A stretch of DNA of 50,884 nucleotides, taken from NCBI GenBank assembly GCA_900197625.1, contig FZLS01000012.1, positions 1 through 50,884 of the forward strand, in the 5' to 3' direction. Source of the stretch: Rhodobacteraceae bacterium Water-Bin34 (GTDB taxonomy: Bacteria; Pseudomonadota; Alphaproteobacteria; Rhodobacterales; Rhodobacteraceae). The translations under genes were made by a program, and so were the position numbers. The notes beneath the pieces were generated by a model. That model ran no database searches and was not told where the DNA came from. It was given only the letters and a program-made list of their open reading frames with translations. This document shows, piece after piece, positions 9,368 through 50,884 of the stretch; position 1 is the first letter of the stretch, and every line of letters begins with the position of its first letter.

Positions 9368-9789
9368 TATACATCATCCTCCTCGGATTGACCAAGGGTA
9401 AAGGATAATGAAGCATCCACGGCTAAGTTTGTATCAGTTTTTAATTCTAGTAAATCTCCAGATTTAAAGAATTGTCCATTGAGTGGTAAAGGAATTGTGT
9501 CATACGCAGGAATTTGAAGATTTCTGATAATCCAAAAAGTATCATTATCTTCATACCTATACGTTCTTACGTCAACCATTACTGTGTTTGCTGTAAAGTT
9601 ACATAAGATGAGAGGAGAAATAACTTCTCCTACTCCAGGTTCTACCGTTGTTGAACCACCAAACACTAATTCAGGTACCTCATAATTTGGTACTTCAATC
9701 ATAGTCTGCCAATTCGTACTCAACGTAAAGGACTTGGCTACCGGTTTAGCATCTGGTGCCTGAGATGTTACGATTGTTGTAATAGTCAT
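9367..9789 (-). CDS. Virion structural protein, possible fibre connector (140 aa)
   Basis: A 140-residue, beta-rich protein without signal peptide. Features are an N-terminal Thr/Ser stretch, a central LILCNFTANTVMVDVRTYRY strand pair, a PAYDTIPLPLNGQFFKSGDLLELK segment and an acidic tail (EEDDV). The layout, with hydrophobic strands and an xPxxGxFxxxGDxL turn, is like small virion proteins that sit beside fibre genes in marine T4-like phages. It overlaps both neighbours by one base (TAATG), so it is translationally coupled between the 3683-aa protein and the collagen-like fibre. A role in attaching or organising these fibres is inferred from position only. Confidence 0.7.
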   Translation of the reverse strand: MTITTIVTSQAPDAKPVAKSFTLSTNWQTMIEVPNYEVPELVFGGSTTVEPGVGEVISPLILCNFTANTVMVDVRTYRYEDNDTFWIIRNLQIPAYDTIPLPLNGQFFKSGDLLELKTDTNLAVDASLSFTLGQSEEDDV

Positions 9790-15700: not shown

Positions 15701-18700
15701 GTAGATATGCTTTGTTCTTTTGTAAGATTCTCGATGCATATACACCTTGTTGAGAACCTGCGACTTTAATAACTGCACCTTCGTCTGCACTTACAAATGT
15801 ATGGGTATCTGTATTTGTTCCTGCAGTACCGCAATAAACTGTAACAACATCACCAGCAACGTTTGTAATTGCTAATGGTAACTTGTATGACCAATCACCG
15901 ATACGTGGTGAGAAATCAGTACCTCCACCGTTTGCAGCACAACTAAATGCGAAACTTTGTGGTTGTAATTCGATATGATCGTCAGTTGTAAGATCGTGAC
16001 CTGGAATTGTAATATCTAAAATACCTGTTACTGGATCATAATCTGCAGTTGTAGGAGTATAAGCTTTTAATACTTTAGCAGGATCTGAGAAGAACAATGC
16101 GTTAGCATCGATACAATCAGATGTTGCACTTACAAATGTATGGTTATTAGCATGGCCATTTGCATTACCTACGTTTACTGTAATTGTATTACCTGTTACT
16201 GCTTTAACTCTTACTGGTTCTTTATATGCAGGGTGGTCGTATAATGGAGCAGCATCTGTTCCTGTTACACCGCCAACGTCACAACTAAATACAATTGATT
16301 CTGGAGCAATTTCAATCCATTTACCAACTGGTAGATCGTGATTACCAATTGTAAGTTCCATATCGCCTGATACTGGATCGTATGTTGCAGTTTCTGGAGT
16401 AAATGTTCCTGTCCACATATCACCTTCGCGAATAGCGTTGGTTGTTGCAGATACAAAGGTATGAACTGATGTGTCACTTGACTCACCAACATTTACTGTA
16501 ATTGTTGTTGCATCTCTATCAGAAATCTTAATTGATTTCTTATATGCAGGATGTCTTTTTTCTGCTTGGATAGCGTTAGTTTCTGCTGATACAAATGTAT
16601 GTAATCCACCGCCATTTGCGACTCCACCAACATTCATATGAATCGTATTACCATCAACTCTATCAATAACAATTTGTTTCTTGTAGAATGGGTGATGTGA
16701 TTCAGGAGCTGGGTGGTTTGTTATGTCACCATCTAATGCACATGTAAATACAATTGAGTTTGGTTTGAACTCTACAAGATCGCCAGCTTTAAGAGCATTT
16801 GTTCCAATGTTTGCACTGAACTCGCCAGTTGCTGGATCATAAGATGCAGTTGTAGGAGTATAGTTAATAAACTCAGTAGTTGGATATGAATGCTCAGTAA
16901 CGTTACCGTCTAATGCGCATGTAAATGTTAAACTATTTGGTTCAATAAAGATACTATCGCCAATTTGGAAATCGTGAGAACCAATTGTAAGTACTGTTGT
17001 ACCTGATGTCGGAGTATATACTGCATTTGTAGGAGTATATTTCTTACCATTATTGTTAAGCAATCTAGTCATTTCATCGAATGCTTTATTTGCTCTATCT
17101 TCAGCAATTGAATTAGTTACTAAGTCTGCAGTTTCTGCTTTTAAGTAATTAATTGAACCAACTGTTTCGACCAACTGATCAGTAACACTAACTTCTCCAG
17201 ACTTAGTACGATAAGCCGCACCAGTTTGAATTGAGTTATAGTTTGTACCAAGCATTACATCTCTTTGAACTGCTGGTAAGATATATTCTTCTGTATCTCT
17301 GTGACATTTCTTACTGTCATAGAAGTAGAATTCATTATCTACCCAGTCCATCATGTAATCTTGTACGAACTCTCGGTTTAATTGTAAACCTGCTCGAGCA
17401 TTACGCTTATTAACATCGATAGATGAATTATCGCTGAATGTAATTGCGTCGCCGATTACTGATACTGCATGATCTTTTGCTTCAACAAATCTATGTTCGA
17501 AATTAGCTTTTCCTAATCCTGGATTAACTGTAATCGTTTTAGCTGATACAGCAACAATTGGTAATGCAGCCAAGTAAGCTTTATCAACTTTTCTTGGATG
17601 ACTGATTTGTGTTTTAAAGTTATCAGAAGCACATGTAAATGTAACCCCGCCTTCTGCAATATTAACATAACGTCCAACTGTTAAATCGTGGGTACCAATT
17701 GTAATAACCATTCTACCAGTTTCTGGATCATATGTTACTTTAGTTGGAGTATATTTCTTACCTGAGTTAGCAAGAGCATTAATGATCGTATTAAATGATG
17801 CATAAGCGTCTACTGCGCCAGCAGGAGAATCGTCTTGAATAATTTCATCAGTTGTTTTACGTAATCTTTCGAAAGCAGCTACTGTTTCATTTCTTTGATT
17901 TTCAAGAGATGTTCTAGCAGTATTAACATAGTATGCTAATCCAGTAGTTACAGCATTATAGTTTGTATCCAATAACATGTCAAACTTAGTTGCTGGTAAG
18001 ATATATTCTTTTACGTCTCTTTCACATTTATCGCCATCGTAAGCATAGAATTCATCGTTGTTATCGATCCAATCTACAAACTCATCAATGATTAAGTTTC
18101 TGTTATCTTGAACAAGCTCTCTTGCCGCAACTGCGTCTGTATCGCCAGTATTAGCAAAGATAATATCTTCAGCAGCTTCTTCACCATTTTGAAGAATATT
18201 TAATGTTTCATCTAAAGATCTATCTAAACGAGTTTGTACTTCGCCTGATTGTTCGTTAGTAAAGATATGATTAATGTCTGCTTTAATATGTTCAATAGAA
18301 CCTACTGTTTCAGTCATTTGATCGCTAATAACAACATATGAAATTGGCGAACGATATGTGATACCGTTTAAACGACCCCAGTAGTTAGAATTTGTTGCAA
18401 CGTCATAAGATGCAGAATCAACAATTAATCCTGTATCTCTGAAACATTTATCAGCATTATAACCTTGATAACCAAGTCCTGGTCCGCCTTCAAATCCTGT
18501 TGTAGTATTTGCAGTTAAATAATCGATCATATTATCGATAATTTCAGCTTGATTTTCATCAATTGTATCTGCAAAATCTGTATTAGAAATTAGGTTAAGG
18601 TCATTAGCTTGTGCAGGTTTAATAATAACGGTTGAACCTCTTGCACGCATTGAGATGTCACCGAACTGAGAACCTGAGTTGTTCAATGTCATTTGACCAC

Positions 18701-20840
18701 CGTCTAATGCGAAGAACGCTTGACGTGTAAAGATCGAAAGTGAACCAATACCGTTAACACCAGCACCGTTTTTAGCAACGTATCCTGTACCGTTTTGAGT
18801 ACGAGGTGTGAAACCAAAACATAATACGTATGTATATAGTGAGTCAGTATCAAGTACTGCTCTATCTGCTAGAAGACAACCACCACCGCGGCCAACCAAT
18901 CTATTTGGGAAATCGTCAATCCCGATACTTTCCACTGTACCTGTACCACCACGTTGGGCATAAAGAATATCTCCAACATCTACATTACCTTTCAAGTTTC
19001 TGACATAGATTTGTCTGGCTGAATCAATATCATCAATATAAGATATAAATCCGCGAGCACCACTTGAGAAAGTAACTTCATCGTTAACTTCAAATTGATT
19101 TTGTGGGCTGTGGCCAACTTCCATGTAGAATTCGCGACCTAAATCGAGAATAGTACCTTTCGAGTTAAATGGATTTAGAGGTGGTTCAACATCTAAACGG
19201 TTGAAGTTTGAAAGCTGAGATGAATCTCGAATATATGGAGATCTTCTTAACAATGCACCTGGACGATATGCGATAGCAAATCCGCCTTCAGGTTGATCAA
19301 AGTTATCTACTTCAAAGTTCATATATGCAAAACCTTGAACATAACAACCAGATCCAACTAAAATACCGTTAGTTTGTTCGTAACCTGGCTTCTTCTGAAT
19401 TACTGTAGCGTACTGACCAGCAGTTGAAGTCATTGAACAATCATCAGGTAATACAATCGGTTCATCAACATAGTAGGTGCCTGGACCCACAGAAATATGT
19501 ACTGCGTTGTTTATGTCGTTACGATCTGGGTTACCACCTGCTTTTTGAATCGCAAGCTCTGATGCTCTAGCAAGGGTTCTGATTGGCTGTAGAATGCTTC
19601 CTGGATATCTATCATCGCCATCTGATGCTACGTGAATTTTAAGAGATTTTTCTGTTTTCTTAGAGAATTCATCGTACAATTGACGATAAGTCATTTTCTC
19701 TGTATCGCCAGTTTTGACGTTCTTTAGAGCAAAATAACTATCTTCATCAAGCATTGGCTCGAATGTTTTAGTAATATCCATATCGAAGTCAACAAGAGCA
19801 GATTCTTCGATTGTTGAATTAGAAACTACTGACTCTTCGATATCAGAATTTTTAATTGTTGATCTTTGTTGTACTAGATCTTCAGAGGTTGAACTTCCAA
19901 TTTGGATATTAGTTGCAACAACTTGGTCCATAGAACCAGTTAACTGAGCATCTTCTAATATTGGATTAGTGAATGTGTTATTATCACCAGTACCATTTGA
20001 GAAATCAGAGTTTGTAATTACAATGTTGTTAGCATTAGTATCGTAAATCTCACCATTTGAGAAGTTCGAATCAGTTATGTCTGTTGTAGTAATCGTATTG
20101 TTAGATAAAACAGTATCGTATATTTCGCCATTAGCGAATACTGAATTTGTAATGATTACATTATCTAAATCTGTATCTCTAATATCCGAATTAGAAATAT
20201 CGGTATCGACAATAGTTACATTGGATACTGCACTATCACTGATAGTACCATTTGAAAAATCGGTAGTAACAATTTGTGAGTTAGAGATAAACGCATCTTC
20301 AAGGATAAGTTCATCAATCTCGATGTTTGTAAGGATTAAGCCGTTTGCTGTACCTTGATCGATGGTAACATTATTATAGAATGAATCATCGATAGTAGAA
20401 TTTGTAAAGATATTATTGTTACCAGTCGAGTTGTTTAACTCAGATTGATCTACAATAGTATTTGTGAATACGTTATTATTACCAGTACCATCTGAGAAGT
20501 CAGAACCTACGATGGTTACGTTGGCAACTGCAGTGCCAGTCATTGTTCCGCCAGTAATATCGGAATCGTCTATAGCTGAATCGTTAATTGAACCGTCGTT
20601 AAATGTGTTACGATTCATTACGTTATCTTCAATTGTAGAGTTGAAGATTCTTACACCGGAAATCGATCCGCCAGTGATTGTTATTCTATCAAAAACTTCA
20701 TATTGTAAAGCTTGTACAAGTTCTTTTCTCGTAATGTTTTTAGTACCGTCATCACCCTGGATAAGGTTAACGATAACAAAAAGGTCTTCAGAGCGAGTAT
20801 TGGCACCTTTAATCGGACCTAATTCTGAAATCTTTGACAT
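9789..20840 (-). CDS. Giant mosaic virion protein with solenoid N-terminus and two interleaved repeat families (3683 aa)
   Basis: One uninterrupted frame of 11 kb. Residues 1-50 (MSKISELGPIKGANTRSEDL...) look like a conserved virion-attachment segment. Residues about 50-330 are short Asn/Asp/Ser repeats (SNGEIYDT, FTNSTIDDS) typical of a beta-solenoid. Residues about 390-720 resemble a pectate-lyase-like beta-helix region (DGDDRYPGSILQPIRTLARA, VGPGTYYV). After that, two families alternate: at least 11 helical units with (K/R)CxRDxG...DAxxxD, and about nine beta units (YDPxTGxM, IGxHxL, FxC, ending HTFVSA). The C-terminus is basic. It could be a giant tail fibre or a baseplate-linked adhesin. 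No catalytic site was recognised. An exact late promoter lies 41 nt upstream, and the site AAGGG precedes the ATG. Confidence 0.82.
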   Translation of the reverse strand: MSKISELGPIKGANTRSEDLFVIVNLIQGDDGTKNITRKELVQALQYEVFDRITITGGSISGVRIFNSTIEDNVMNRNTFNDGSINDSAIDDSDITGGTMTGTAVANVTIVGSDFSDGTGNNNVFTNTIVDQSELNNSTGNNNIFTNSTIDDSFYNNVTIDQGTANGLILTNIEIDELILEDAFISNSQIVTTDFSNGTISDSAVSNVTIVDTDISNSDIRDTDLDNVIITNSVFANGEIYDTVLSNNTITTTDITDSNFSNGEIYDTNANNIVITNSDFSNGTGDNNTFTNPILEDAQLTGSMDQVVATNIQIGSSTSEDLVQQRSTIKNSDIEESVVSNSTIEESALVDFDMDITKTFEPMLDEDSYFALKNVKTGDTEKMTYRQLYDEFSKKTEKSLKIHVASDGDDRYPGSILQPIRTLARASELAIQKAGGNPDRNDINNAVHISVGPGTYYVDEPIVLPDDCSMTSTAGQYATVIQKKPGYEQTNGILVGSGCYVQGFAYMNFEVDNFDQPEGGFAIAYRPGALLRRSPYIRDSSQLSNFNRLDVEPPLNPFNSKGTILDLGREFYMEVGHSPQNQFEVNDEVTFSSGARGFISYIDDIDSARQIYVRNLKGNVDVGDILYAQRGGTGTVESIGIDDFPNRLVGRGGGCLLADRAVLDTDSLYTYVLCFGFTPRTQNGTGYVAKNGAGVNGIGSLSIFTRQAFFALDGGQMTLNNSGSQFGDISMRARGSTVIIKPAQANDLNLISNTDFADTIDENQAEIIDNMIDYLTANTTTGFEGGPGLGYQGYNADKCFRDTGLIVDSASYDVATNSNYWGRLNGITYRSPISYVVISDQMTETVGSIEHIKADINHIFTNEQSGEVQTRLDRSLDETLNILQNGEEAAEDIIFANTGDTDAVAARELVQDNRNLIIDEFVDWIDNNDEFYAYDGDKCERDVKEYILPATKFDMLLDTNYNAVTTGLAYYVNTARTSLENQRNETVAAFERLRKTTDEIIQDDSPAGAVDAYASFNTIINALANSGKKYTPTKVTYDPETGRMVITIGTHDLTVGRYVNIAEGGVTFTCASDNFKTQISHPRKVDKAYLAALPIVAVSAKTITVNPGLGKANFEHRFVEAKDHAVSVIGDAITFSDNSSIDVNKRNARAGLQLNREFVQDYMMDWVDNEFYFYDSKKCHRDTEEYILPAVQRDVMLGTNYNSIQTGAAYRTKSGEVSVTDQLVETVGSINYLKAETADLVTNSIAEDRANKAFDEMTRLLNNNGKKYTPTNAVYTPTSGTTVLTIGSHDFQIGDSIFIEPNSLTFTCALDGNVTEHSYPTTEFINYTPTTASYDPATGEFSANIGTNALKAGDLVEFKPNSIVFTCALDGDITNHPAPESHHPFYKKQIVIDRVDGNTIHMNVGGVANGGGLHTFVSAETNAIQAEKRHPAYKKSIKISDRDATTITVNVGESSDTSVHTFVSATTNAIREGDMWTGTFTPETATYDPVSGDMELTIGNHDLPVGKWIEIAPESIVFSCDVGGVTGTDAAPLYDHPAYKEPVRVKAVTGNTITVNVGNANGHANNHTFVSATSDCIDANALFFSDPAKVLKAYTPTTADYDPVTGILDITIPGHDLTTDDHIELQPQSFAFSCAANGGGTDFSPRIGDWSYKLPLAITNVAGDVVTVYCGTAGTNTDTHTFVSADEGAVIKVAGSQQGVYASRILQKNKAYLQAEVDAYMNDNYFIYDKDKCMRDTGFILNAVARDIATDSNVNSIYVGKGYRIGTVGANNVVNNQLTETVGAITWLKDKIATEVLTDATAIARSNASFDEIIDIMSNGNAAADALVFGGQSVSIDAYAAKTALQNNKAFIQKEVIAWIAANHPGFTYDQAACERDLGIFVDTASWDLQHGGNAATVNNSRLYFENALPVLSDEEIVPTSGAYEFVSYLVGQIVRGETVTPLQGTETQVLTDEESFSPSNATYDPVTGVMVLTIGVHTFAIGDRISIDPNAITFQCAFNGGGTDSHPNANDPNLGKPYVITDIAAQTITVNAGSAGSNTDVHSFISATANSVRRATMADAYTATDIAYNHLTGVMTMTLGDRHRFVKGDHVIFDENAITFSCPTSDSDPTPINISHPRPTDPIFNKPVRIDSVTSTTITMQVGKAGVDKVHTFVSATTNGLRRSLGVSIASRAVNLFAQIGETLEQNDGTVPTVVEPVYKLTSNYPLKSESEAILGQKPKYQTEIIDHIYETFDGHGYEVTKCSRDVGYIVDAISEDLEYGGDTATVYNARYYFEGAVNTLPYYQREPSRLAFTHIADVMEKVVKNEINEPVFGSRFTPTNATYDPVTGIMVATIGTHTLTTDDYIWFTEGAITFSCDTGSGAQDHASPEAHHRFHHKPCPIIGVTGTTITMWVSAAGAYTGAHTFVSALTDGLSQVTGNLEMQNVTLDAADAATGLAAKNLAMIIANVVDDRLVVPDYTGSLDISVGQQTPRPLPVATGGPLMDPARTFARKTLQWNREFIQEEVVRFVRDNNYTYDEAKCARDVGFIIDAVARDVQTGSDYPSQYYGKAYRVGTALAQNVINEQLSETVEAIEYVQDDILPRLSGAALTRATNAFNNVINIMKNGTAGVTYDYGIANVGNSDAAATQGLTLNIPFLQEEAIAWIAQNHGSLVYDETKCRRDVGFLVEATAYDIRHGSNVAMRDFAKLYFENGINVGLPEAQRAPTAALYNHLAAVAEQVVLKQTVTPTTGNGVSQVTSGFGNVVGASGIEVELLIKIVADIITDDSLINLPQAREATITDAAATGYNFETEKDLILGRKEALGSSVVQYLNDKFAFLQYEEARCRRDTGYIVDAISHDIQYGGNAAMHGTAELYFKNAVNILPIDQRQATREAFEYMAKVVQHVVRNEPVEREIGNQFTPTSASYDPDSGIFTATLGTGHGLTAGDHVMIAPESIVFTCSLDGDIAEHPSPQLGDPYYGNPYYITSADATTITMQVGKVAYGKGGGAHTFVRASLNAISHVTGNHVKQEMPTIATRRPIATEAMNLALMLSKVSDDNSPSAIPARVEPFTNWIDADILAAKNVIDNNTVQMATDLQTYIYDTYNGISYSKEKCRRDVGTMIDALSHDVNYSTNYATVQTAGLYFVNAVSVLPADQRQQTARFFTELADTVEKIVVGGTVDTSISKHSSSTQVAVTAATAVEAEEVADLVRIVEDTIRRDSIDAIPAITEPDLSWVDADRIAAANSIDENLDELADDVTEFLKDTFTIVDYSKAKCRRDAGYILDAMSWDLNYGGNLATRWNANFYFWNNELRVPEDTREATAQAYRQLGYIVAQIVRGTYPGQVIRSELGTEVQSKQATDLGLIFYNALFYNDVNKLGPSIDPDFGWETDKTFKFAKDILGDNRTRIQREVQRFITSEYKFIDLPKTYRDAGNFLKVIQNDFRYTDPSLNPNNLYNVSGAGADQASRSFVGALFNIDAQHVFPVFNPPASFANWRNLRFKGTVVDAAARDALTDMKRWDAYIIPTNNNDNRYVGEIFHWTGVAWASVGQNNTDLLDAFTGAWTQMKTYINNNIAPDLTHRNMVTELIDNVIIDSVIRPNFLVFGSLVESIAHQFNGASAGVNRNALPLNFRNVGAAIGANASVLSENGGRIRWSGSDELNNQYFARGLKINGRTGRIEGRPFTSSVRKLARRASNSRASL
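10181..10188 (-). promoter_or_regulatory. Possible internal late promoter element TATAAATA
   Basis: An exact TATAAATA on the minus strand inside the 3' end of the 3683-aa gene, about 390 nt before the start of the 140-aa gene. It could boost expression of the 140-aa protein and the collagen fibre. The octamer also arises by chance in AT-rich coding sequence, and the distance to the next start is much longer than at the intergenic sites. Confidence 0.3.
10980..18480 (-). repeat. Two interleaved protein-coding repeat families inside the giant gene
   Basis: Helical units with a KCxRD signature occur near 18440, 18040, 17300, 15640, 15220, 14110, 13270, 12860, 12350, 11560 and 11060, with a degenerate one near 10610. 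Beta units that open with YTPT.ATYDP and close with HTFVSA lie between many of them, from about 17,750 down to 11,840. The repeats are diverged at DNA level, so they represent old duplication rather than recent tandem copying. Confidence 0.75.
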
Positions 20841-23674: not shown

Positions 23675-23863
23675 TTATCTCTTCTCTATTTTATCTACCC
23701 TATCGCTCAGTCTTTTCAAACAGGCTTTAGCTTCGTTAAGTTCGCTTTGTAATCTATCTACTTTTCTATATAATGCTCTTTCTGATTTATATTTATTAAG
23801 AGCTTGTATATCAGTATTTATTACTGCTCCGCTGTCATCTCGTACTAAAGCTGGCTTGATCAT
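23675..23863 (-). CDS. Small coiled-coil protein (62 aa)
   Basis: A 62-residue protein whose residues 25-60 form a heptad-patterned charged helix (LYRKVDRLQSELNEAK, then LKRLSDRVDKIEKR), predicting a coiled coil. The first 20 residues (MIKPALVRDDSGAVINTD) are extended. The ATG overlaps the stop of the 1786-aa gene by 4 nt (ATGA), and the stop is directly followed by the 458-aa fibre gene. Both indicate a genuine coupled gene. Small coiled-coil proteins at this location could be oligomerisation adaptors between the large baseplate protein and the fibre. No function is known to me. Confidence 0.7.
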   Translation of the reverse strand: MIKPALVRDDSGAVINTDIQALNKYKSERALYRKVDRLQSELNEAKACLKRLSDRVDKIEKR

Positions 23864-26800
23864 GTCAATGCAATGCCTCTATAGTCTTTTACAAATGGTG
23901 CATTATGAATGCTGTCAGCAATTAAGTCAATTCTTATTGCAAACTTTCTATATCCAAGGAATGTACCTGCATCACTTGTATATGTTAATACACCGGTATC
24001 TTTGTTTGCATCTGCTACAGCATATCTATATTCTCTAAAGTCGTCTAAATTAGAAGATGACGAGAAGGTTTGTGCGCCTTCAATAGTTTCTAATTCAATC
24101 CAATCAATAGTATCTTCTGCAGAGCTATCTTGTGCATGTTGTGGTCTAATATAAACTTTAATTTCAGTTCCTGCTGGTCTATAACCTGTTAAGTACAGAT
24201 TTAAATCTTCAGCATCTAAGTCTTCAGCTAATTCAACAGTCTTAGAAATATATTTAGATGTTGTAACAGTTGAATCTGTTACTTTAAATTGATATGCTAA
24301 TAGCGTTGCTAATTCTAAATCAACAATTGGAGTCGAAGTAGAGTTAGATGAGTTAGTCATAGCCACATTAATTAAGAATGGTTTTGGATTTACAAAGTTG
24401 TTTGACCTAGAATAAATAACAACACCATTTTGAGTGAAGAAGTTATTATCACCAAACTTCATTGGCATATCATATGAATTAACAACGTTTGCTGGATCTG
24501 TAAACGTACCACTGATTGAAGTTGTTGTTACAGAATCGTTTGTTTTCTGAATTAATGGTTGTACATAACTTAAATTAATATTATCAACCGATCCAATTGT
24601 ACCAGTTGTTGTTGAATCAAGACCTGTAAGAGTATCACCAGCAACAAATTTCTTAGACATAATCGAAGAACTTTGTTTTAAGTGAAGTGTAGATGCAGTA
24701 TACTTGTTGTAATGTGAAATGATACCAGCAACAATTGGAATACCAGAAGATGTTGCGCCATTGAATGAACAAGGTTTATCTGTAGTCATTTCAGTAGCTG
24801 AATCAACACTTACAATTCTAAATATATCCCTTGCAGTATTACCTGAATTAATTACAAGAATATAATCGCCTGCTGCATAATCAGCAGTAAAGTCATTACC
24901 CGATTGAGTAATAATATTTGTTCCTTGTATCATTGAAACTGAATATCCTACATCAATTTGCTTATAAGCATATTCATTAATATTGAATCTTCCAGTCCAA
25001 TCAGATAATGTTAAGAACTCGTGATCATCATTAGTAAGAGAAACACTACCTGTTGCAGCGTTAAAGTCGTGACGATATAAGTTAAACTTAATATCTTCGT
25101 CTTGTACTGATTGCCATGCTCTATTGTTTGTAGATGTGAATAGAACTCCATCACCCCAGTCCATTACAACTGCTTGACCTTGAGTAGGACCGGCAGTAAG
25201 ATCATCACCACCAACTTTAGAAGTATAATGTAAGTAGTTTGGATCGTTAGCATCTGGCATAATTACCACTGCATATTCTTTTTCAACATCCATTCTAATC
25301 GGAGCATCAAATTGAACTTCTGTAACTGCCGAAGCGTCGTCTGATACACTTACTTCTGAAGGAGATAAATGAGTCTTAGAGAATGGTAAAATAATATTAG
25401 ATGGATAACCATTAATAACTTCGCGTATTGTAATAGTAACACCGTTAATATTTGATTTACGTTTAAAGAATAAATCAACTTTAGATACAAAGATTGAATT
25501 AGATCCACGACCCATACCTTGTTTAATAAAGAATGTTTGAGCTAATGGATCGCCTCGTCTTGTTACCTGAGTCATACGAGATGCTAAGTTTCTTGATGTA
25601 GCAGTTTCTTCTGTACCAAACTCTGGCATTCTTGTTGCGATGGTTGCTTTGTTCTGTGTAATATTATATGCGTGATAAGCAATTTCACCTTTTGAAGTAG
25701 AAGCTGATTCAATACTTGAATATTGACTCACATCAACTGCGGTAAGTACTCTATCACCTACATAGAATTGACCTTGTGGAATTCTAAATACAGCTCTTAA
25801 AATACCGTTTGAATCGGTTGTAACTGCAGCTCCGCGATCTCCAACTTTTTGTACATTTCTTGCATCCATTGCAGCAGGAGAGCCTGGAGCAACATGTGCA
25901 TTAACATCAACACCATCAAAGAAGAAGTAGTGTTGTGTACTAGGACGTAGACCAGAGATGAATACTTTAACGTTTCTTGATCTCATAAATGGTTGGAATT
26001 GAACGTTAGTAACAAAGTCACCAACTTGATCTAATCCACCATCGTTTACAGTAAGACTTGATATTGTACCAGCTTGAGTCCTAGGAGTAATTGTAGTTGT
26101 CGTTCTACCAGAAGTAATACTAGTTGAAGGACCGTTGGTAATTGGACCATCCCAGCTTGTACCAGTGATTGGTAATACTTCTTGTAAATCTTGGAATACA
26201 CCCGCTAAATCAATTTCTAATGGTACTGGATTTTGAATAGTATCGTGAGCCATATCGTGGCTTGGAGAAATCTGAGCATTACCATCATATTTCCAGAAGT
26301 TAGATACACAGTTTCTAAAGTTTGTAGCATAAGGCTGACCAATTAACTTAACATTAGCATTTCTACTTAATGAAGCAACTTCAGCACTATTAACATCTGG
26401 GAATATAGTTGCGCCTGCGGCAGTACTATATTTAAGATCTATTGGGAATGTATTCAATGCAGGAGTAAGAATTTTCTTATCAAAATGAATAGCAGCTTTA
26501 TAGTTAGGATCTTCTGTATTAGCAATATCTGCATCATTCATTGGATCTACAATGTAACCATTCTTAAATCTTGATAAACCATTTTCATCTAAAATTAATA
26601 GATTTTCTGAGCTTTGTTCTAATTGATTTAAACTAATGTAATATTCAAGACCTTCAATTCTTTTTTCGATCTTTTCAATATCACGCATTGTATAGTTTGG
26701 AGTACCGACTGATTTTACTTGTACAGCTGACGAGAACTTACCTTGCTCTGACGCTTCTTTTTGTGATAAGGCAGGATAACCAGGAATAAACACTGTTGAA

Positions 26801-29220
26801 ACAATTAATTGATCTGATCCAACTTTAGGTGTAATTGGATTCTGGCTTTCTTCACCTTTAATAATTTGTGAGTTACCATATGAATCGAAACAAATAGCAT
26901 CAACTCTTGATAGATAACTTTCAACGTCTGATGTGATTGCAGATTCCAATGCCGGTACTAAGAATGTACCAGTAAATGTTGGTGTAACACTTTGTACTGC
27001 GGCTGTTACAACTCCAGCTGCTCCTTGAGATACATCAGTATAATCAACATTTGAATCTTTATCAGCATATGGTCTAAAATCAAAACAATTTCTTAATTGA
27101 TATAATTTACCATTAGTAGCTTTATAGCTTTCTAAATCAGATGATCTTACAAATCCATCTGGTAATGTTGCTGTATCGTCATCAATAGGATAACTATTAA
27201 TGTTAAAGAAGTGTTGTCCTTGCGAAGTATTACGCTGGTAAACTGCAAGTTGTACAACTAATTGTTGACCATTTGCTGGTTGTGGACGACCTTGGATATA
27301 TTCCATATATGATCGATCATAGAAATGGTCGTTTTGATTTGTGTGTAATTTAAAACTGTCGGTAAAATCTGTTCCACCAGGTCCAGTACTAACACTAATA
27401 ATTTTGTATACATCAGGGAAACCTAAACTGTATTTAGAAGTAACAGTTGCAAAGTTAACTTTGATATATGGTTTAACTGATGTTTTAGGATGTGGTATTG
27501 CGTTCGTTAATCTCTTATTGAAGTATACCTCTGCACCACCGGCTGCTGCGCCTGGATCTAATGCAATAGTCATTACTGAATCTGCTAATGTTTTGGTAAC
27601 ACTTACTACTGAAATAACTGTATTTGTGGTATCGACTACGAGAATATCATCTTGATTTACTGCAAAGTCTTCGCCAACTGCAGCTGTAATTTCAATTTCA
27701 TCATTAACTACAGATACAGCTTTTTGAGCTCTAACTGGAATAACCATATCGGTAAATTCTTTAATGTATGGAGTACCTGTATCGAAAACAACTGGTGACT
27801 TATTAATTTCTCTTACTTTGTCATTTGCAGCAACTGTGATCTCACCGGCAGATCCAACAATTTTTACAACTTCATCAAAGTTATTAGGTAAGAGCATTTT
27901 AACGCCCATTAAATATACTCGAGTAGGTGTAAGGTTTTTAACGTATGCCTTACCAATCGTACCATTTACTGAGTTTTTAAGATCTACTATTGCATAGTTA
28001 GTATCCACTGTACCAGAAATAGCTACTACATTAAGATAAGATCCATAATCTATACTTGTTGCTTGGTTAGGTTGAATCGCAGTATTAGCGACATCGTCAA
28101 TTGCAAAATCTAATTTACCACTGTTTTCTACTCTGAAACCTTTAATATAAGCCGTGCCTTTACCAACAAGAGCAGTAAGCTCATTGTTTCTTCGGTCCAT
28201 ATCAACTTTAAAGTTTTCTAAAACATAGTTACCTGATTCTTCGTATGTTCTTTTTGCCATTTCATCAGCAATAGAATTGAACTGAGCAACGTCACGTAAA
28301 GTAACTGCTGAGCCATTTTGATAACGAATCAATGTAAAGAATACAGGATCTACGTCTGCAACTGCAGTATCTTTTACAACTAATTTTGGAACCATTGAAA
28401 GTCTATCAGCACCAGGTGCATTTTCATTCTGCGACCCGTTTGCATTATCATACAAAGTGTTATCTTGTAATGAACTTACTAATAATTCGTCAACTTCATA
28501 ACCAACTGATAAATCATCAGGTTGATCGTTGTATTTTGATACAACTAATGTTTGATCTTTTGTAAATAGGAAATGACCTTTTTGGAAAATAACACCGGCC
28601 GATGCTCTAATACCGAATGATTTACCAACAGGATCATTTTGTAATGTTACGTTAATTTGCCATAAAGCAGCGTCTGCTCCAGATCCGCCTTCTTGTAATG
28701 CGCTAACTAAAACTGAACCGTTATAAACATATTTCGTAATTGTTAATGCTTCACCAGTTTGGAAACGTTGAACAGCACCATTTGTATTCAAATAGTTAAT
28801 AAAGAAAGTATTAAGATCTGGTGGTCTTGTTTCAAAACCGCGAGTAGCAGCAATGATATTAGCTTTAAGACCAGCAGCATTTGATACCTCGTATACAACA
28901 TCGACGTCTGTTACTAAGCCGTCAATAATTGCTGTACTTGGACCAGATACGTATGATTCAACATCGAAGTCAGTTTTATCGGTTAACCTTACAAATTCTA
29001 AACCGTTAAGGTTAGTAAAGTTACAACCTTTAATAATAGTACCTTCCTGGTAGATATTATCTCCGAATTGCTCTACTTGATTTTGAAGAATTGATTGAAG
29101 TTGAGTCAGCTCTCTTGCTTGTACAGCATATGCTGGCTTAAACAGAATCTTATAGAACTGCTTTTCGACATCAAAGTCATCAAAATATGGTGCAATATTT
29201 AAATTTGTATTAATAGGCAT
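23860..29220 (-). CDS. Giant DUF4815-type baseplate/fibre structural protein (1786 aa)
   Basis: The N-terminus (MPINTNLNIAPYFDDFD, then ARELTQLQSILQNQVEQFG and EGTIIKGCNF) matches the DUF4815 signature found in large virion proteins of cyanophages and pelagiphages. The following 500 residues continue this region. Near residues 1078-1100 a strand-rich repeat (SGLRPSTQHYFFFDG) occurs. Near 1227 is GDPLAQTFFI, followed by a jelly-roll-like stretch (VDLFFKRKS, ITIREVINGYPS). The C-terminus is another beta domain (GYRPAGTEIKVYIRPQHA). It follows the gp8-like wedge gene by 15 nt and has an AAAGGAAA ribosome site. Order and size suggest a tail-fibre-like component attached to the baseplate. No enzyme motif was recognised. 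Confidence 0.8.
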   Translation of the reverse strand: MPINTNLNIAPYFDDFDVEKQFYKILFKPAYAVQARELTQLQSILQNQVEQFGDNIYQEGTIIKGCNFTNLNGLEFVRLTDKTDFDVESYVSGPSTAIIDGLVTDVDVVYEVSNAAGLKANIIAATRGFETRPPDLNTFFINYLNTNGAVQRFQTGEALTITKYVYNGSVLVSALQEGGSGADAALWQINVTLQNDPVGKSFGIRASAGVIFQKGHFLFTKDQTLVVSKYNDQPDDLSVGYEVDELLVSSLQDNTLYDNANGSQNENAPGADRLSMVPKLVVKDTAVADVDPVFFTLIRYQNGSAVTLRDVAQFNSIADEMAKRTYEESGNYVLENFKVDMDRRNNELTALVGKGTAYIKGFRVENSGKLDFAIDDVANTAIQPNQATSIDYGSYLNVVAISGTVDTNYAIVDLKNSVNGTIGKAYVKNLTPTRVYLMGVKMLLPNNFDEVVKIVGSAGEITVAANDKVREINKSPVVFDTGTPYIKEFTDMVIPVRAQKAVSVVNDEIEITAAVGEDFAVNQDDILVVDTTNTVISVVSVTKTLADSVMTIALDPGAAAGGAEVYFNKRLTNAIPHPKTSVKPYIKVNFATVTSKYSLGFPDVYKIISVSTGPGGTDFTDSFKLHTNQNDHFYDRSYMEYIQGRPQPANGQQLVVQLAVYQRNTSQGQHFFNINSYPIDDDTATLPDGFVRSSDLESYKATNGKLYQLRNCFDFRPYADKDSNVDYTDVSQGAAGVVTAAVQSVTPTFTGTFLVPALESAITSDVESYLSRVDAICFDSYGNSQIIKGEESQNPITPKVGSDQLIVSTVFIPGYPALSQKEASEQGKFSSAVQVKSVGTPNYTMRDIEKIEKRIEGLEYYISLNQLEQSSENLLILDENGLSRFKNGYIVDPMNDADIANTEDPNYKAAIHFDKKILTPALNTFPIDLKYSTAAGATIFPDVNSAEVASLSRNANVKLIGQPYATNFRNCVSNFWKYDGNAQISPSHDMAHDTIQNPVPLEIDLAGVFQDLQEVLPITGTSWDGPITNGPSTSITSGRTTTTITPRTQAGTISSLTVNDGGLDQVGDFVTNVQFQPFMRSRNVKVFISGLRPSTQHYFFFDGVDVNAHVAPGSPAAMDARNVQKVGDRGAAVTTDSNGILRAVFRIPQGQFYVGDRVLTAVDVSQYSSIESASTSKGEIAYHAYNITQNKATIATRMPEFGTEETATSRNLASRMTQVTRRGDPLAQTFFIKQGMGRGSNSIFVSKVDLFFKRKSNINGVTITIREVINGYPSNIILPFSKTHLSPSEVSVSDDASAVTEVQFDAPIRMDVEKEYAVVIMPDANDPNYLHYTSKVGGDDLTAGPTQGQAVVMDWGDGVLFTSTNNRAWQSVQDEDIKFNLYRHDFNAATGSVSLTNDDHEFLTLSDWTGRFNINEYAYKQIDVGYSVSMIQGTNIITQSGNDFTADYAAGDYILVINSGNTARDIFRIVSVDSATEMTTDKPCSFNGATSSGIPIVAGIISHYNKYTASTLHLKQSSSIMSKKFVAGDTLTGLDSTTTGTIGSVDNINLSYVQPLIQKTNDSVTTTSISGTFTDPANVVNSYDMPMKFGDNNFFTQNGVVIYSRSNNFVNPKPFLINVAMTNSSNSTSTPIVDLELATLLAYQFKVTDSTVTTSKYISKTVELAEDLDAEDLNLYLTGYRPAGTEIKVYIRPQHAQDSSAEDTIDWIELETIEGAQTFSSSSNLDDFREYRYAVADANKDTGVLTYTSDAGTFLGYRKFAIRIDLIADSIHNAPFVKDYRGIALT

Positions 29221-46591: not shown

Positions 46592-47214
46592 TGGCATCAA
46601 TGTTCGACGACATACTCCTTAAAGGAATACGATCTGGTAAAGCACCAGCGCGTACAGACGCAGCTAGACAGTGGTATAGAGATCAAGCCAAAGGTGTAAC
46701 TCGTACAAATAGAAATAGATCCAAAGGTGATAAACTCATTAAAGAGTTAAGACAAGATAATAGCAGACGCCAAGATTCTAGGTTTATGATGGGAAATATG
46801 TACTTATTTGCATATGATCCCAAACATAAAGACACTTTACCATATTATGACCGGTTTCCGCTTATTTTTCCAATAAATAAAGCAAAGGGTGGGTTTCTTG
46901 GTATCAATATGCATTATTTGCCACCGATTTTAAGAGCAAAATTAATGGATCAATTGTATACAGTGTTAACAAATAAAGCATTCGACGAAACAACGAGACT
47001 ATCTGCGTCATATAAAGTACTTAATAGTGCGGCAAAATTTAAAGAGTTTCAGCCAACTATTAAACATTATTTGAATGCACATGTAAGAACTAAACCAGCA
47101 TATATCAATCCATCAGAATGGGATATTGCATTGTTCTTACCGACTCAACAGTTTGTTGGTGCTACTGCTACCCAAGTATATGCTGATTCTAGACGAATCG
47201 TAAGAGGAAGATAA
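46591..47214 (+). CDS. gp2: Probable DNA end protector protein gp2 (207 aa)
   Basis: A basic, mainly helical protein. The first 60 residues are Arg/Lys-rich (AARQWYRDQAKGVTRTNRNR). The core reads MYLFAYDPKHKDTLPYYDRFP, LIFPI, GFLGINMHYLPPILRAKLMDQL and AYINPSEWDIALFLPTQQF. I recognise this core from marine T4-like phages, where it is annotated as gp2. In T4 gp2 protects packaged DNA ends from RecBCD and its gene neighbours gp4, as here. T4 gp2 is longer (274 aa). The assignment rests on remembered similarity and the gp4 neighbourhood, so a different virion role is possible. It is coupled to both neighbours by TAATG overlaps. Confidence 0.65.
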   Translation: MASMFDDILLKGIRSGKAPARTDAARQWYRDQAKGVTRTNRNRSKGDKLIKELRQDNSRRQDSRFMMGNMYLFAYDPKHKDTLPYYDRFPLIFPINKAKGGFLGINMHYLPPILRAKLMDQLYTVLTNKAFDETTRLSASYKVLNSAAKFKEFQPTIKHYLNAHVRTKPAYINPSEWDIALFLPTQQFVGATATQVYADSRRIVRGR

Positions 47215-47975
47215 TGGCATTTAACATATCAGAATTTAAAACGCAATTAGATTGGTTCGGTGGTCCATCGCGCGGTTCTTTATTCGAAGTACAAATATCA
47301 AGACCAGCAAACATAAAGTCAAGAGCAAGTTCAAGAGATCTTATATTCTTTTGTAAAAACGCCTCCGTTCCAGGTATTGTATTTAATACAGTACAGAATG
47401 ATCAGGTCGCTCAGTTTCGTAAATTAATGCCTTTGGGTGTTAACACTGAACCGGTTCAAGCAATCTTTATGCTTGATTCAGATCATCAAATATTATCCTT
47501 TTTCCACTCGTGGGCTCAAAATGTAGTTAATATAAGTACTGCCGCTGGCTCATTTGCAGAAGTAGATGGTAAGTTACCATTTGAAATAGGATATAAAGAC
47601 AACTACGCATGTAGAGTAGTAATTAGACAATACTCTACTAATTATGAAGAATCAGGTCAGTATTACGAAGTAATATTAGATAATGCATTTCCAATGATGA
47701 TTGGTGATGTTGATTTAGCGTGGGAAAATAATGATTCATTCTCAGTATTACCAGTATCTCTTCAATATGATAGAATACAATTTAGTGGTGAAAGAATTGG
47801 ATCACCTACCGCAAGATTCGGTAGAGGAAATGGTTTACTAGGATTAATACAACAGATCGGCGCCGTTGGTCAATTAATCGGAGCTGACCTTGTACCAACA
47901 TCGGTGCAAGACGCAGTAAACAAATATACAAGAGTAAATAACAAAGTGCGTCGAATAAAAGACTTTTTTGGTTAA
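47214..47975 (+). CDS. gp54: Tail-tube-fold protein, probably gp54 tube initiator (253 aa)
   Basis: Residues 1-190 show the tail-tube beta-barrel order: SLFEVQISRPANI, FFCKNASVPGIVF, FRKLMPLGVN, AIFMLDSDHQILSFFHSWAQ and a final DLAWENNDSFSVLPVSLQYD strand. This fold is shared by T4 gp19 (163 aa) and by the hub-to-tube adaptors gp54 and gp48. The added C-terminal helical tail (GLLGLIQQIGAVGQLIGADL) and length favour gp54, which in T4 is 320 aa. gp19 cannot be excluded. It precedes the gp26-like gene by 14 nt. The usual T4 pair 48-54 is split here by the strand switch. Confidence 0.65.
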   Translation: MAFNISEFKTQLDWFGGPSRGSLFEVQISRPANIKSRASSRDLIFFCKNASVPGIVFNTVQNDQVAQFRKLMPLGVNTEPVQAIFMLDSDHQILSFFHSWAQNVVNISTAAGSFAEVDGKLPFEIGYKDNYACRVVIRQYSTNYEESGQYYEVILDNAFPMMIGDVDLAWENNDSFSVLPVSLQYDRIQFSGERIGSPTARFGRGNGLLGLIQQIGAVGQLIGADLVPTSVQDAVNKYTRVNNKVRRIKDFFG

Positions 47976-47989
47976 TGGAGAAATAAATT

Positions 47990-48691
47990 ATGGCTTTACC
48001 TAAAATCGAATTACCGATTTTTGAATTGGAATTACCTTCAACAGGAGAGGCAGTTAAATACAGGCCTTTTACTGTTAAGGAAGAAAAAATATTGCTAGTG
48101 GCGCAAGAATCAAATGACGCTCAGCAAGAACTAATGGCAGTTAAACAAGTTGTTAATAATTGTTTAGTTGATAAAAAAGTTGAAGAACTTGCAATGTTTG
48201 ATTTAGAATATATTCTTTTAATATTAAGATCTAAATCAGTTGATAATATGATTGAATTTCAGATTACAGATCCTGAAACAGATAAAATTGTTGAGTTAAA
48301 ATTAGATATTGAAAGTGTTACTTTAACTACACCAGATAATAATAGAACAGAAGTTAAGATTAACGATGAATACACATTGTATTTAAAGTATCCATCAATA
48401 GATGAATATGCTAAGATTTTAGTTATGGATACTCAAGATCCTTTAGTTAACTATGTTTTAATGGTTGCATGTATGGATAAAGTAGCCTCTGAAGATGAAG
48501 TATCGCATTTTAAAGACTACAGCGAAGAAGATATCGCAGGTTTTGTAGATAATTTAGGTGCAGATGTTATCCAAGGTATTCAAGAATTTTTTGAGAATAT
48601 CCCTAGGTTAAGACATGAAATGAAATATACTAATGCTGATGGAAATGAAAAGACCTTTGTCGTGGAGGGCATGCGCAGTTTTTTTATCTAG
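47990..48691 (+). CDS. gp26: Baseplate hub/assembly protein gp26-like, unshifted product (233 aa)
   Basis: The opening ALPKIELPIFELELPSTGE, then YRPFTVKEEKILLVA, is the conserved start of the T4 gp26 family (baseplate T4 type; T4 gp26 is 208 aa). The remainder is a mixed helix/strand protein with MFDLEYILLILRSKSVD and DPLVNYVLMVACMD. In the zero frame it ends ...MRSFFI and stops at TAG 48689-48691, directly after a T7 run. The start ATG has a GGAGAAATAAATT leader. gp26 takes part in hub assembly in T4. A shifted longer product is predicted (see the entries at 48664 and 48685). It sits immediately upstream of the tape-measure-like gene. Confidence 0.82.
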   Translation: MALPKIELPIFELELPSTGEAVKYRPFTVKEEKILLVAQESNDAQQELMAVKQVVNNCLVDKKVEELAMFDLEYILLILRSKSVDNMIEFQITDPETDKIVELKLDIESVTLTTPDNNRTEVKINDEYTLYLKYPSIDEYAKILVMDTQDPLVNYVLMVACMDKVASEDEVSHFKDYSEEDIAGFVDNLGADVIQGIQEFFENIPRLRHEMKYTNADGNEKTFVVEGMRSFFI

Positions 48692-48750
48692 TGCTGTGTC
48701 ATACCTCGCTGGGTGACTATTATCAAATCATCTTTGCAATGGCACAGCAC
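48664..48750 (+). promoter_or_regulatory. Programmed -1 ribosomal frameshift signal
   Basis: Three elements occur in order. An internal Shine-Dalgarno GGAGGG lies at 48664-48669. After 9 nt there is a T7 slippery run (T TTT TTT, 48679-48685) in phase with the gp26 frame. After a 5-nt spacer, a 12-bp stem pairs GTGCTGTGTCAT (48691-48702) with ATGGCACAGCAC (48739-48750), with one G-U pair and a 36-nt loop. Spacing closely follows the E. coli dnaX signal. The -1 frame opens a 56-codon extension. Confidence 0.8.
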
Positions 48751-48855
48751 CACAATTGGTCGTTAAATGAGATTGAAAATATGTTACCATATGAAAGAGA
48801 ATTATATTTTGGAATGATCGTAGAATTTATTGCTAAGCAAAACGAAAATAATTAG
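48685..48855 (+). CDS. -1 frame extension of gp26-like protein (gp26-frameshift product, gp51 position; 56 codons)
   Basis: Reading in the -1 frame from TAT at 48685 gives 56 codons and stops with TAG at 48853-48855. The peptide includes SLGDYYQIIFAMAQHHNW, then LNEIENMLPYERELY and MIVEFIAKQNENN, a helical sequence clearly of protein-coding type. Joined to the first 232 residues of gp26 it predicts a 288-aa shifted product. The peptide resembles what I recall of small proteins annotated as gp51 (hub assembly catalyst) in marine T4-like phages. Alternatives are a separate gene starting at GTG 48691 by TAGTG coupling, or at ATG 48739. Neither has a clear own ribosome site, so frameshifting is preferred. 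The next gene starts 10 nt after the stop. Confidence 0.72.
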   Translation, partial: YLVLCHTSLGDYYQIIFAMAQHHNWSLNEIENMLPYERELYFGMIVEFIAKQNENN

Positions 48856-48865
48856 GAAGAAATAA

Positions 48866-50884
48866 ATGGCTGAGTTGTCACAAGAAACAATTGCTATAAT
48901 CGATAGATTAAAAGCCGAAGGAGATCTCAATAGAAATACTGGGACTAATTCTATACGCTCGATGAATATAAAACTAGATAAATTTGATAGTTTATTCAGA
49001 AGTATTAACGCGAACGTAATAGAACAAACTTCGATGCTAAAAATGCAATTAGGTATTGCTAATGATGCTCAAGAAAGAGCTAGAACTCAAGAACAGTTTG
49101 ATGAAGTTACTCCTCCCACACCTACTGCTCGCCAAACAGACGATTATAGTGATGGTAATAAAAAAGCAGATACAAATGCAGCCATTAATAAAATGGGAGA
49201 TGCAATTGCAAAAACTCTTAGTCTTAAAAACTTAGCAATAGGAGCTGGCGCAGGCTTTGTAGGATACAATCTATTAAAAGGTTTCATAGATACTAAGTAC
49301 GACGGCGCATTTACTGAAATGGAAGAAGGCCTTGGTGGTTTTGGTAAGGAACTTAAAAAGTTTAGTCTAGATGGTATGGATGATATTAAAACTACCATAA
49401 AAGATATGAATAAAACGCTTAAAGATCTTACAGGACCAGACGGAAGTATTACTAAATTAAACAATAACATTTCCGATTTAAGTGACAAAATGCGTGAGAT
49501 TGCTGATATGACTTGGGTAGATGTTGCAGCAAAAGCAATTGGAGCTATTTCGCTTATTACTCTTGGCGCAGCATCTGTTAGATACGGTTTAAATAGAATG
49601 AGCACCGACATGGAAGCGTTTAGAAAAGCCCAAGGCGGCCGAACGTGGCTCCAAAGAATATTTAATTTAAATAAAGATGGATCAGTAAAAACTCAAGTAG
49701 GCGGTGGAAGAGGCAGTGGTCCACTTGAAGTAGAAGCAAGAAAAGCTGAAGCAGCTAGATTAAAAGCTGCAAACGCAGGTCCAAAAGTTAATACCACCAA
49801 TATAAAACAGCCAACAATACCAAAGGGAGTTGGCACAAGCGGCGCAGGTTCAGTTACGCCAATAACGAGTCCAAAAGTTCCCTCAACCACACCGAAAATG
49901 GTAACCACTGCTGCAGGTACTCAGGTATCAAAACCTCAAATAAGAACTGATTCAATTGGTAAGAATGTTGGTGGAAAGGGTACAATTACTAAGAATGCCG
50001 CTGGTAGATTAGTATACAAAGATGGACCAAATGCTGGAAAATTTGTTAATGACGCAGACGCGCTTAAAGCAATGGAAAACAGCTTAGATTCAAGATATTC
50101 TAAAGTGTTTGGTAGACTTATAGCCTTATTTAAAATGGTTAAAATTGCTGCCGCTGTGTTACTTATGTATGAGATTTATACCATTTTAGAAGATGACGAT
50201 ACCTACCCAACTAAAGAAGATAAAATTAAAGCAATGGGTCCAATAATTGGTAACATAGTTGGTGGTTTAGGTGGAGCTGCACTTGGTGCGGCTATGGGTT
50301 CAATACCTCCTTTAACAGGCTGGGGTACACTTATTGGCGGCATTGGAGGCGGTATCTTAGGCGCGTTTATGGGTGGTTATCTTGGAGAGATTGTTGCAAA
50401 ATGGGCATTTGCTGAAGATCCAAAACCTAAGGATATTGATACATTAGACAATATTGTAGCACCTGGAGAAAATGCACCTCCAATGCCTACTGGTGGAGGC
50501 CACGGTGGTCGAGCTGCTCGTATAAGATGGGATAAAAAATATGGCAAAACACATAATAAAGACGGTACACCAAAGGTATTTAAACAAGGAACTAACCGTG
50601 GTGATAGATCAGGAGTAAATAAAACAAGAAGAACAGTTCAGCAGTTAAAAGATGCTGAGGCGGCGGCAGGCAGTTCTCAAGGTCCTGGCGGATATACACC
50701 AAACGAAATACAACTCCAAGAACAGGGGCTTATGGGCCAAGGCCGTGCTAATGTAAAATTAAATGAACAAGTAGCAATGTTAGGTGCCGCTGGTGCAATT
50801 GGTTCTGGTGGAGTAAACGTAGTTAATAATAATGCTCCAAATATTGCACCTGTTATGATGCAACAAGGCGGAAGTGATGTTACT
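48866..50884 (+). CDS. Tape-measure/baseplate hub protein, gp29-position (N-terminal 673 aa, runs off right edge)
   Basis: The ATG at 48866 follows AGGAAG at 48855-48860. The first 80 residues are helical and charged (SIRSMNIKLDKFDSLFRSIN). A hydrophobic stretch near residues 120-141 (LAIGAGAGFVGYNLLKGF) and a second near 410-440 (IALFKMVKIAAAVLLMYEIY) look like membrane segments. Residues about 456-515 are Gly-zipper-rich (GNIVGGLGGAALGAAMG). Long helices, hydrophobic segments and placement after the chaperone-like gp26 gene suggest a tape measure or gp29-type hub protein that sets tail length and may enter the membrane during ejection. The protein continues beyond the window, so its size is unknown. 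Confidence 0.7.
   Translation, partial: MAELSQETIAIIDRLKAEGDLNRNTGTNSIRSMNIKLDKFDSLFRSINANVIEQTSMLKMQLGIANDAQERARTQEQFDEVTPPTPTARQTDDYSDGNKKADTNAAINKMGDAIAKTLSLKNLAIGAGAGFVGYNLLKGFIDTKYDGAFTEMEEGLGGFGKELKKFSLDGMDDIKTTIKDMNKTLKDLTGPDGSITKLNNNISDLSDKMREIADMTWVDVAAKAIGAISLITLGAASVRYGLNRMSTDMEAFRKAQGGRTWLQRIFNLNKDGSVKTQVGGGRGSGPLEVEARKAEAARLKAANAGPKVNTTNIKQPTIPKGVGTSGAGSVTPITSPKVPSTTPKMVTTAAGTQVSKPQIRTDSIGKNVGGKGTITKNAAGRLVYKDGPNAGKFVNDADALKAMENSLDSRYSKVFGRLIALFKMVKIAAAVLLMYEIYTILEDDDTYPTKEDKIKAMGPIIGNIVGGLGGAALGAAMGSIPPLTGWGTLIGGIGGGILGAFMGGYLGEIVAKWAFAEDPKPKDIDTLDNIVAPGENAPPMPTGGGHGGRAARIRWDKKYGKTHNKDGTPKVFKQGTNRGDRSGVNKTRRTVQQLKDAEAAAGSSQGPGGYTPNEIQLQEQGLMGQGRANVKLNEQVAMLGAAGAIGSGGVNVVNNNAPNIAPVMMQQGGSDVT

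Follow-up and report, generated by a model that had tools for sequence, protein, structure and literature searches.

Organization of the gp26-like locus

The window, i.e., the whole stretch of 50,884 nucleotides analyzed in this work, harbors close to its end a gene whose product is related to the T4 baseplate protein gp26 and which overlaps an open −1 frame. The features of this locus, all on the forward (+) strand, are the following:

47214..47975, +, tail tube gene, the upstream neighbor (PHROG 45, tail tube; E 6e-31)
47990..48691, +, gp26-like gene, short form of 233 aa (frame-0 ORF)
48664..48669, +, internal Shine-Dalgarno-like motif GGAGGG, 9 nt 5′ of the T run
48679..48685, +, slippery heptamer T TTT TTT (frame-0 phase AG-T TTT TTT, i.e., X XXY YYZ)
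48679..48855, +, −1 frame encoding a gp51-type tail (58 codons counted from the start of the heptamer, then a TAG at 48853-48855)
48689..48691, +, frame-0 stop codon TAG, one codon past the heptamer
48691..48702, +, 5′ arm of a putative stimulatory stem
48739..48750, +, 3′ arm of the stem
48866..50884, +, downstream neighbor, from its position only possibly a tape measure gene, cut by the window end

The gp26-like ORF matches the Pfam family PF12322 (T4_baseplate) with an E value of 3.6e-51 and 174.4 bits (Pfam cut-off of 24.5), and its product matches PHROG 150 (baseplate hub; E 8.9e-57). The 3′ end of the gene reads GTG GAG GGC ATG CGC AGT TTT TTT ATC TAG. As regards the downstream neighbor, the best PHROG match of its product is a family of unknown function and the second one is a tail-associated lysin, these family matches being weak; a tape measure gene (or a similar one) is annotated one small gene past the tail in phages phiM12, HTVC008M, and Cr30.

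The initial annotation of this region had placed a GGAGGG motif and a 9-nt gap before a run of seven T residues, the run lying in phase and being followed by a 5-nt spacer, and had read the −1 frame as open up to the TAG at 48853. Each of these elements lies exactly there, and the sizes of 233 and 288 amino acids proposed for the two products are correct for a tandem slippage at codons 231-232.

Elsewhere, the window carries on the opposite (−) strand a 3683-aa open frame (9789-20840) and a 1786-aa protein (23860-29220), the latter with PHROG matches only of unknown function (358, E 9e-272; 877, E 2e-99).

The gp51-type tail and its relationship with T4 gp26 and gp51

The 58-residue sequence encoded by the −1 frame matches PHROG 634, annotated as “baseplate hub assembly catalyst” (gp51), with an E value of 7.2e-21, residues 2-56 of the tail being aligned to positions 56-110 of the 121 of the profile; no match to the tail was retrieved from Pfam. 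Probing 50,697 phage records with the tail (tblastn) retrieved 557 of them, whose names include Synechococcus (377), Cyanophage (61), Vibrio (51), and Prochlorococcus (24). The length of the tail ranges from 57 to 75 residues in 236 distinct loci. The assembly from which the window comes harbors seven gp51-tail loci, 41-100% identical to the tail of the window, on contigs C110, C86, C108, C197, C89, C262, and C136; several T4-like phages were apparently binned together in this assembly (G000).

In T4, both gp26 (208 aa) and gp51 (249 aa) match PF12322, with E values of 8.8e-64 and 3.9e-52, respectively. Residues 147-246 of T4 gp51 match PHROG 634, and a profile built on 178 distinct tails aligns to its residues 200-246, from a Phe onward (hhalign; E value of 1.3e-8, with a probability of 95.6). 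The same comparison with T4 gp26 gave an E value of 0.07, below the inclusion threshold. Judged by these alignments, T4 gp51 is a paralog of gp26 with the same tail fused in frame. Genes 26 and 51 of T4 lie on opposite strands, and gene 26 ends with GAG TTC TTT GAG TTA CTA TAA (protein EFFELL), without a slippery site and without the tail. A shorter product, 26′, which has the 3′ end of gene 26, is annotated in T4 at positions 115802-116089 (L091); given this shared 3′ end, the short form of T4 may itself come in two sizes.

The number of PF12322 genes differs between phages: T4 has two, and each of the 13 other named phages has one. Similarly, six T4-type virus records harbor two such genes each, and two cyanophage-type records harbor one. 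The heptamer or the tail was found in none of 10 T4-type genes 26 (11 loci were examined, one of which, L349, is cut before its end). The window and one cyanophage-type locus, used as positive controls for this check, both showed the heptamer and the tail. In one virus record (G005, locus L355) the gp51 frame is interrupted and PF12322 matches fall in two adjacent pieces.

The AlphaFold2 model of the window gp26 has a mean pLDDT of 87 and that of a T4-type gp51 of 92; in the latter, the tail is modeled as three helices following a junction helix. A comparison with predicted viral structures paired the gp26 model with proteins annotated as baseplate hub subunit and baseplate hub assembly chaperone and, with a lower rank, as baseplate hub assembly catalyst. 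For neither model did the fold search on the PDB give a match at E ≤ 0.001. Suggestive but non-significant for gp26 are its PDB matches to the uncharacterized protein 3fgx, which ranks third with an E value of 0.5, and to the tail assembly chaperone of HK97 (2ob9), which ranks seventh with an E value of 1.3; the latter is not among the best 50 fold matches listed for the gp51 model. Searching the PDB by sequence retrieved four weak matches, all unrelated, and NCBIfam gave nothing above the cut-off.

Phylogenetic distribution of the slippery heptamer

Six gp26 queries were run against viral contigs (at least 80, at least 80, 11, 78, at least 80, and 2 loci kept, respectively), and loci from the window's own assembly and from phage records were added, for a total of 345 loci, T4 having been excluded beforehand. 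One of them (L001) has a sequence identical to that of the window. Out of the 345, 344 were processed together, and five lacking a stop codon inside the locus were left out, so that 339 were counted; the remaining one (L083), read separately, has ACT TTT TTT ATG TAA at the site.

An in-frame N TTT TTY close to the stop codon is present in 337 of the 339 loci, the preceding base being T in 334 and G in three closely similar ones (L015, L018, and L019), where G TTT TTT replaces T TTT TTT. The two exceptions are L087, which has T TTT TTG, and L178, with an upstream interruption of gp26. The stop codon lies one codon past T TTT TTY in 294 of the 339. The conservation of the T run in relatives, proposed as a check in the initial annotation, is thus borne out, and it supports the claim made there that the elements are unlikely to occur together by chance.

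Since the 339 loci are not independent, they were collapsed to 280 distinct heptamer-bearing gp26 sequences, from which 32 representatives at 60% identity were picked. T TTT TTY occupies the site in all 32 representatives; of the 7400 other codon positions of the same genes, none carries this motif, and heptamers of any X XXY YYZ type number 40 there. Moreover, the first Phe codon at the site is TTT in 280 out of 280 sequences and the base before it is T in 279, while TTT accounts for 2293 of the 3045 Phe codons elsewhere in these genes; for comparison, the commonest codon has a share of 0.50-0.90 in each of 24 further conserved columns in which the residue has two codons. The Phe-Phe pair is written TTTTTC (208) or TTTTTT (72) at the site; elsewhere in the 280 genes it is written TTCTTT (132), TTTTTT (103), TTTTTC (29), or TTCTTC (18).

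Among the 13 named phages with a single gene, 10 harbor the heptamer at the end of gp26: all seven in one set (P-SSM2, S-PM2, S-SRM01, S-MbCM7, HTVC008M, phiM12, and Cr30) and three out of six in another (present in Ps15, G2, and nt-1; absent from TSW001, GR28A, and D504). The cassette is therefore not peculiar to the phage of the window. Phage nt-1 is filed in the Straboviridae like T4, which implies that both arrangements occur within one family. Aeromonas phage TSW001 (L359) and Vibrio phages GR28A (L360) and D504 (L361) keep the tail in the −1 frame without T TTT TTY, the site reading A CTT TTC, G GCT TTC, and A CTT TTC, respectively. In GR28A and D504 the stop codon is overlapped by an ATG (TAATG); TSW001 has no ATG in reach and has instead a CCCCTC...GAGGGG inverted repeat. 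These three phages might use either translational coupling or a different slippery site; that GR28A and D504 keep the tail with an ATG overlapping the stop and without the heptamer indicates that coupling can serve.

The upstream Shine-Dalgarno-like motif and the downstream stem

A Glu residue is present at the position of the Shine-Dalgarno-like motif in 243 of the 280 distinct relatives, and it is encoded by GAG in 180 of these 243, compared with 1530 of the 6206 Glu codons further upstream in the same genes. A Shine-Dalgarno-like pentamer lies within the 21 nt upstream in 229 of the 280.

Downstream of the heptamer, the 75 nt starting at 48686 have a folding energy of −23.5 kcal/mol, compared with −15.0 ± 2.5 kcal/mol in shuffled sequences (z −3.5); Rfam gave no match within 48500-49000. 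The stem was analyzed in 43 distinct sequences of the clade of the window, the window standing in for the identical L001. In all the 43 loci, the 62 nt at the stem rank, by folding energy, among the lowest 10% of the gene to which they belong. The 12-bp stem of the initial annotation does have its arms at 48691-48702 and 48739-48750, but only a part of it is conserved: the bases do not pair at the innermost position in 29 of the 43 sequences, nor at the two outermost positions in 8 and 11, respectively.

Three of five measures of pairing in these 43 sequences exceed those of shuffled alignments. Pairing cells amount to 88.0%, versus 84.0% in the shuffles and 21-57% with one arm slid; the covariation score is 0.196, versus 0.122 ± 0.009 and reached by none of 500 shuffles; and the cells changed on both sides are 22, versus 9.9 (0/500). 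The other two do not: pairs with changes on both sides are 2 versus 2.0 (482/500), and further pair types are 9 versus 7.7 (75/500). The best pair (columns 12-59) is UA in 21 sequences, AU in 9, UG in 7, GC in 2, CG in 1, and other in 3 (n = 43), and it requires no fewer than 17 changes on the gp26 tree (one side, 9; the other side, 15). Its 3′ base is the third base of an Ala/Val codon of the tail; thus, the changes are silent on that side.

A single universal stem was considered and rejected. The P-SSM2-like group has at the same place a different and shorter hairpin, with little covariation, which falls within the lowest-energy 10% in a fraction of 0.98 of 44 loci. In four other sets, the same stability measure gave 0.33 of 3, 0.40 of 43, 0.64 of 47, and 0.55 of 11, with only 0.33-0.55 unusually stable in sets C, D, and F, and several other groups of relatives have no clear stem. 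According to these data, the heptamer is a general feature and the stem a clade-specific one. The stem covariation that the initial annotation had proposed to look for is therefore found in the clade of the window, to which the exact stem is confined.

Access to the −1 frame

From this sequence evidence, the reading that we favor, with a probability of about 0.92, is that a programmed −1 ribosomal frameshift yields two forms of gp26, both putative tail-assembly chaperones. The annotation of gp26 and gp51 as separate genes implies a different explanation, that is, translational coupling, in which the tail is a small gp51 of its own and ribosomes restart close to the gp26 stop codon. Indeed, in the window a GTG (48691) overlaps the TAG, and in the P-SSM2 and S-PM2 records gp51 is annotated from an ATG two bases past the stop; the TAATG of GR28A and D504, which lack the heptamer, points in the same direction. 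Start codons were searched for in 236 distinct tails, from the last upstream −1 stop to the conserved YY motif (only upstream codons being considered in the four tails lacking the motif). An ATG is in reach in 136 tails, only a GTG or TTG in 40, and none of the three codons in 60. The commonest start is an ATG as the sixth codon of the tail (101/236), which in P-SSM2 falls just past the stop. The codon that shares the final base of the frame-0 stop is AGT in 83 of the 236 tails, ATG in 27, GCC in 23, and GTG in 20. A conserved independent start of the second frame in relatives, which the initial annotation had named as evidence against frameshifting, was not found. Moreover, the conserved residues of the tail start directly after Phe-Phe, ahead of the restart codons, and T4 has the same tail fused in frame. 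In six loci (L192, L218, L237, L238, L240, and L252), the frame-0 stop lies eight codons later, within the conserved tail, and the heptamer is unchanged; a restart after the stop would therefore lose the beginning of the tail in these loci. Coupling also provides no reason for the T TTT TTY of all 32 representatives, and as a general explanation we regard it as improbable.

Transcriptional slippage appears less probable still. According to this explanation, the RNA polymerase adds or drops a U within the T run, so that some of the mRNAs encode the fusion. Long T runs can slip, and that of the window has seven residues; however, TTTTTC, with six T residues including the preceding base, is the form found in 208 of the 280 sequences, which is short for slippage, and the phase is kept. 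Furthermore, the bias toward the Shine-Dalgarno-like motif and the covarying stem are ribosomal features, which argues against an event at the transcriptional level. Lastly, that the T run is a chance by-product of Phe-Phe, a pair conserved in the protein and present also in the EFFELL end of T4 gp26, or that a sequencing error split a single gene, has a negligible probability, in that T4 writes the pair within GAG TTC TTT, TTTTTY accounts for 132 of the 282 pairs elsewhere versus 280 of 280 at the site, mixed Phe codons were not seen at the site in similarly distant relatives, and the same phase recurs in hundreds of loci, on many contigs and in seven phage genome records.

A possible model for the synthesis and role of the two forms

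On the basis of programmed frameshifting, we can depict the following scenario. Ribosomes keeping the frame would stop at the TAG and release the short form of 233 aa. The contact between GGAGGG and the anti-Shine-Dalgarno sequence, together with the stem, would pause ribosomes, some of which would then slip at T TTT TTT and continue through the gp51 tail of 56 residues, giving the long form of 288 aa. By gene order and by analogy with gpG/gpGT of phage lambda, the short form would coat the tape measure protein, and the scarcer long form would recruit tube or hub subunits or nucleate the assembly. In T4 and its close kin, each of the two forms comes from a gene of its own, 26 or 51, these genes being diverged paralogs.

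The two-gene arrangement of T4 provides the key to this scenario: phages with one gene seem to make by frameshifting what T4 makes from two, which would account in them for the two proteins encoded by separate genes in T4. We lean toward considering T4 gp26 and gp51 as a tail chaperone pair of the G/GT type. In that case, a single gene with a −1 frameshift would be the more widespread arrangement, and in the T4 branch this gene, its one-gene state being assumed to be the older, would have been duplicated and the copies fixed as the short (gp26) and the long (gp51) form, their ratio being freed from frameshifting, with gp51 as the scarce long chaperone that starts the assembly of the tube or hub on the tape measure protein gp29.

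T4-like phages abound in the sea, and gp26 and gp51 are often annotated in them as two genes; the gp51 annotation is missing in S-MbCM7 and Aeromonas phage G2, and in HTVC008M it starts inside the tail. If a single gene gives both products by frameshifting, such annotations of gp26 and gp51 would be uniformly wrong. Full-text searches of the open-licence literature, which includes few subscription papers, gave among the matches listed no title or abstract opening on frameshifting in gp26/gp51.

Comparison with known systems

A review on T4 includes gp26 and gp51 among the hub assembly chaperones and describes gp51 as required but absent from the particle, its function being unknown (PMC3004832). 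The same review also cites support for the presence of gp26 in the hub, and a work by Snustad (1968) whose title refers to catalytic versus stoichiometric gene products (PMC3004832). With respect to the genes described here, the T4 pair (PF12322) is homologous, gp26 corresponding to the short form and gp51 to a paralog with the same tail; it differs in consisting of two genes, on opposite strands and with no frameshift site.

Frameshifting in tail-assembly genes is already known as a kind, the relevant part of PMC5009743 describing it for gpG/gpGT of lambda and for other genes of this type; in lambda, the partner of gpG is the tape measure protein, and that of the scarce gpGT is the tube protein (PMC5009743). 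The lambda genes share with the arrangement proposed for the window a −1 shift close to the end of the first gene, a short and a long form, and the vicinity of a tail tube gene and, putatively, of a tape measure gene, and by this gene order the pair of the window most likely works like gpG/gpGT. The resemblance is one of layout, no sequence relation or significant fold relation having been found. The sites differ too: the lambda slippery site is G GGA AAG, whereas that of the window is T TTT TTY with an upstream Shine-Dalgarno-like motif and a stem.

A similar layout is that of Escherichia coli dnaX, whose cassette consists of an upstream Shine-Dalgarno sequence, an A AAA AAG heptamer, and a downstream stem. 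The same three elements, with a similar spacing, occur in the window. The genes are unrelated, the heptamer is T TTT TTT/C rather than A AAA AAG, and the outcome is reversed, as frameshifting makes the shorter product in dnaX and would give the longer one here.
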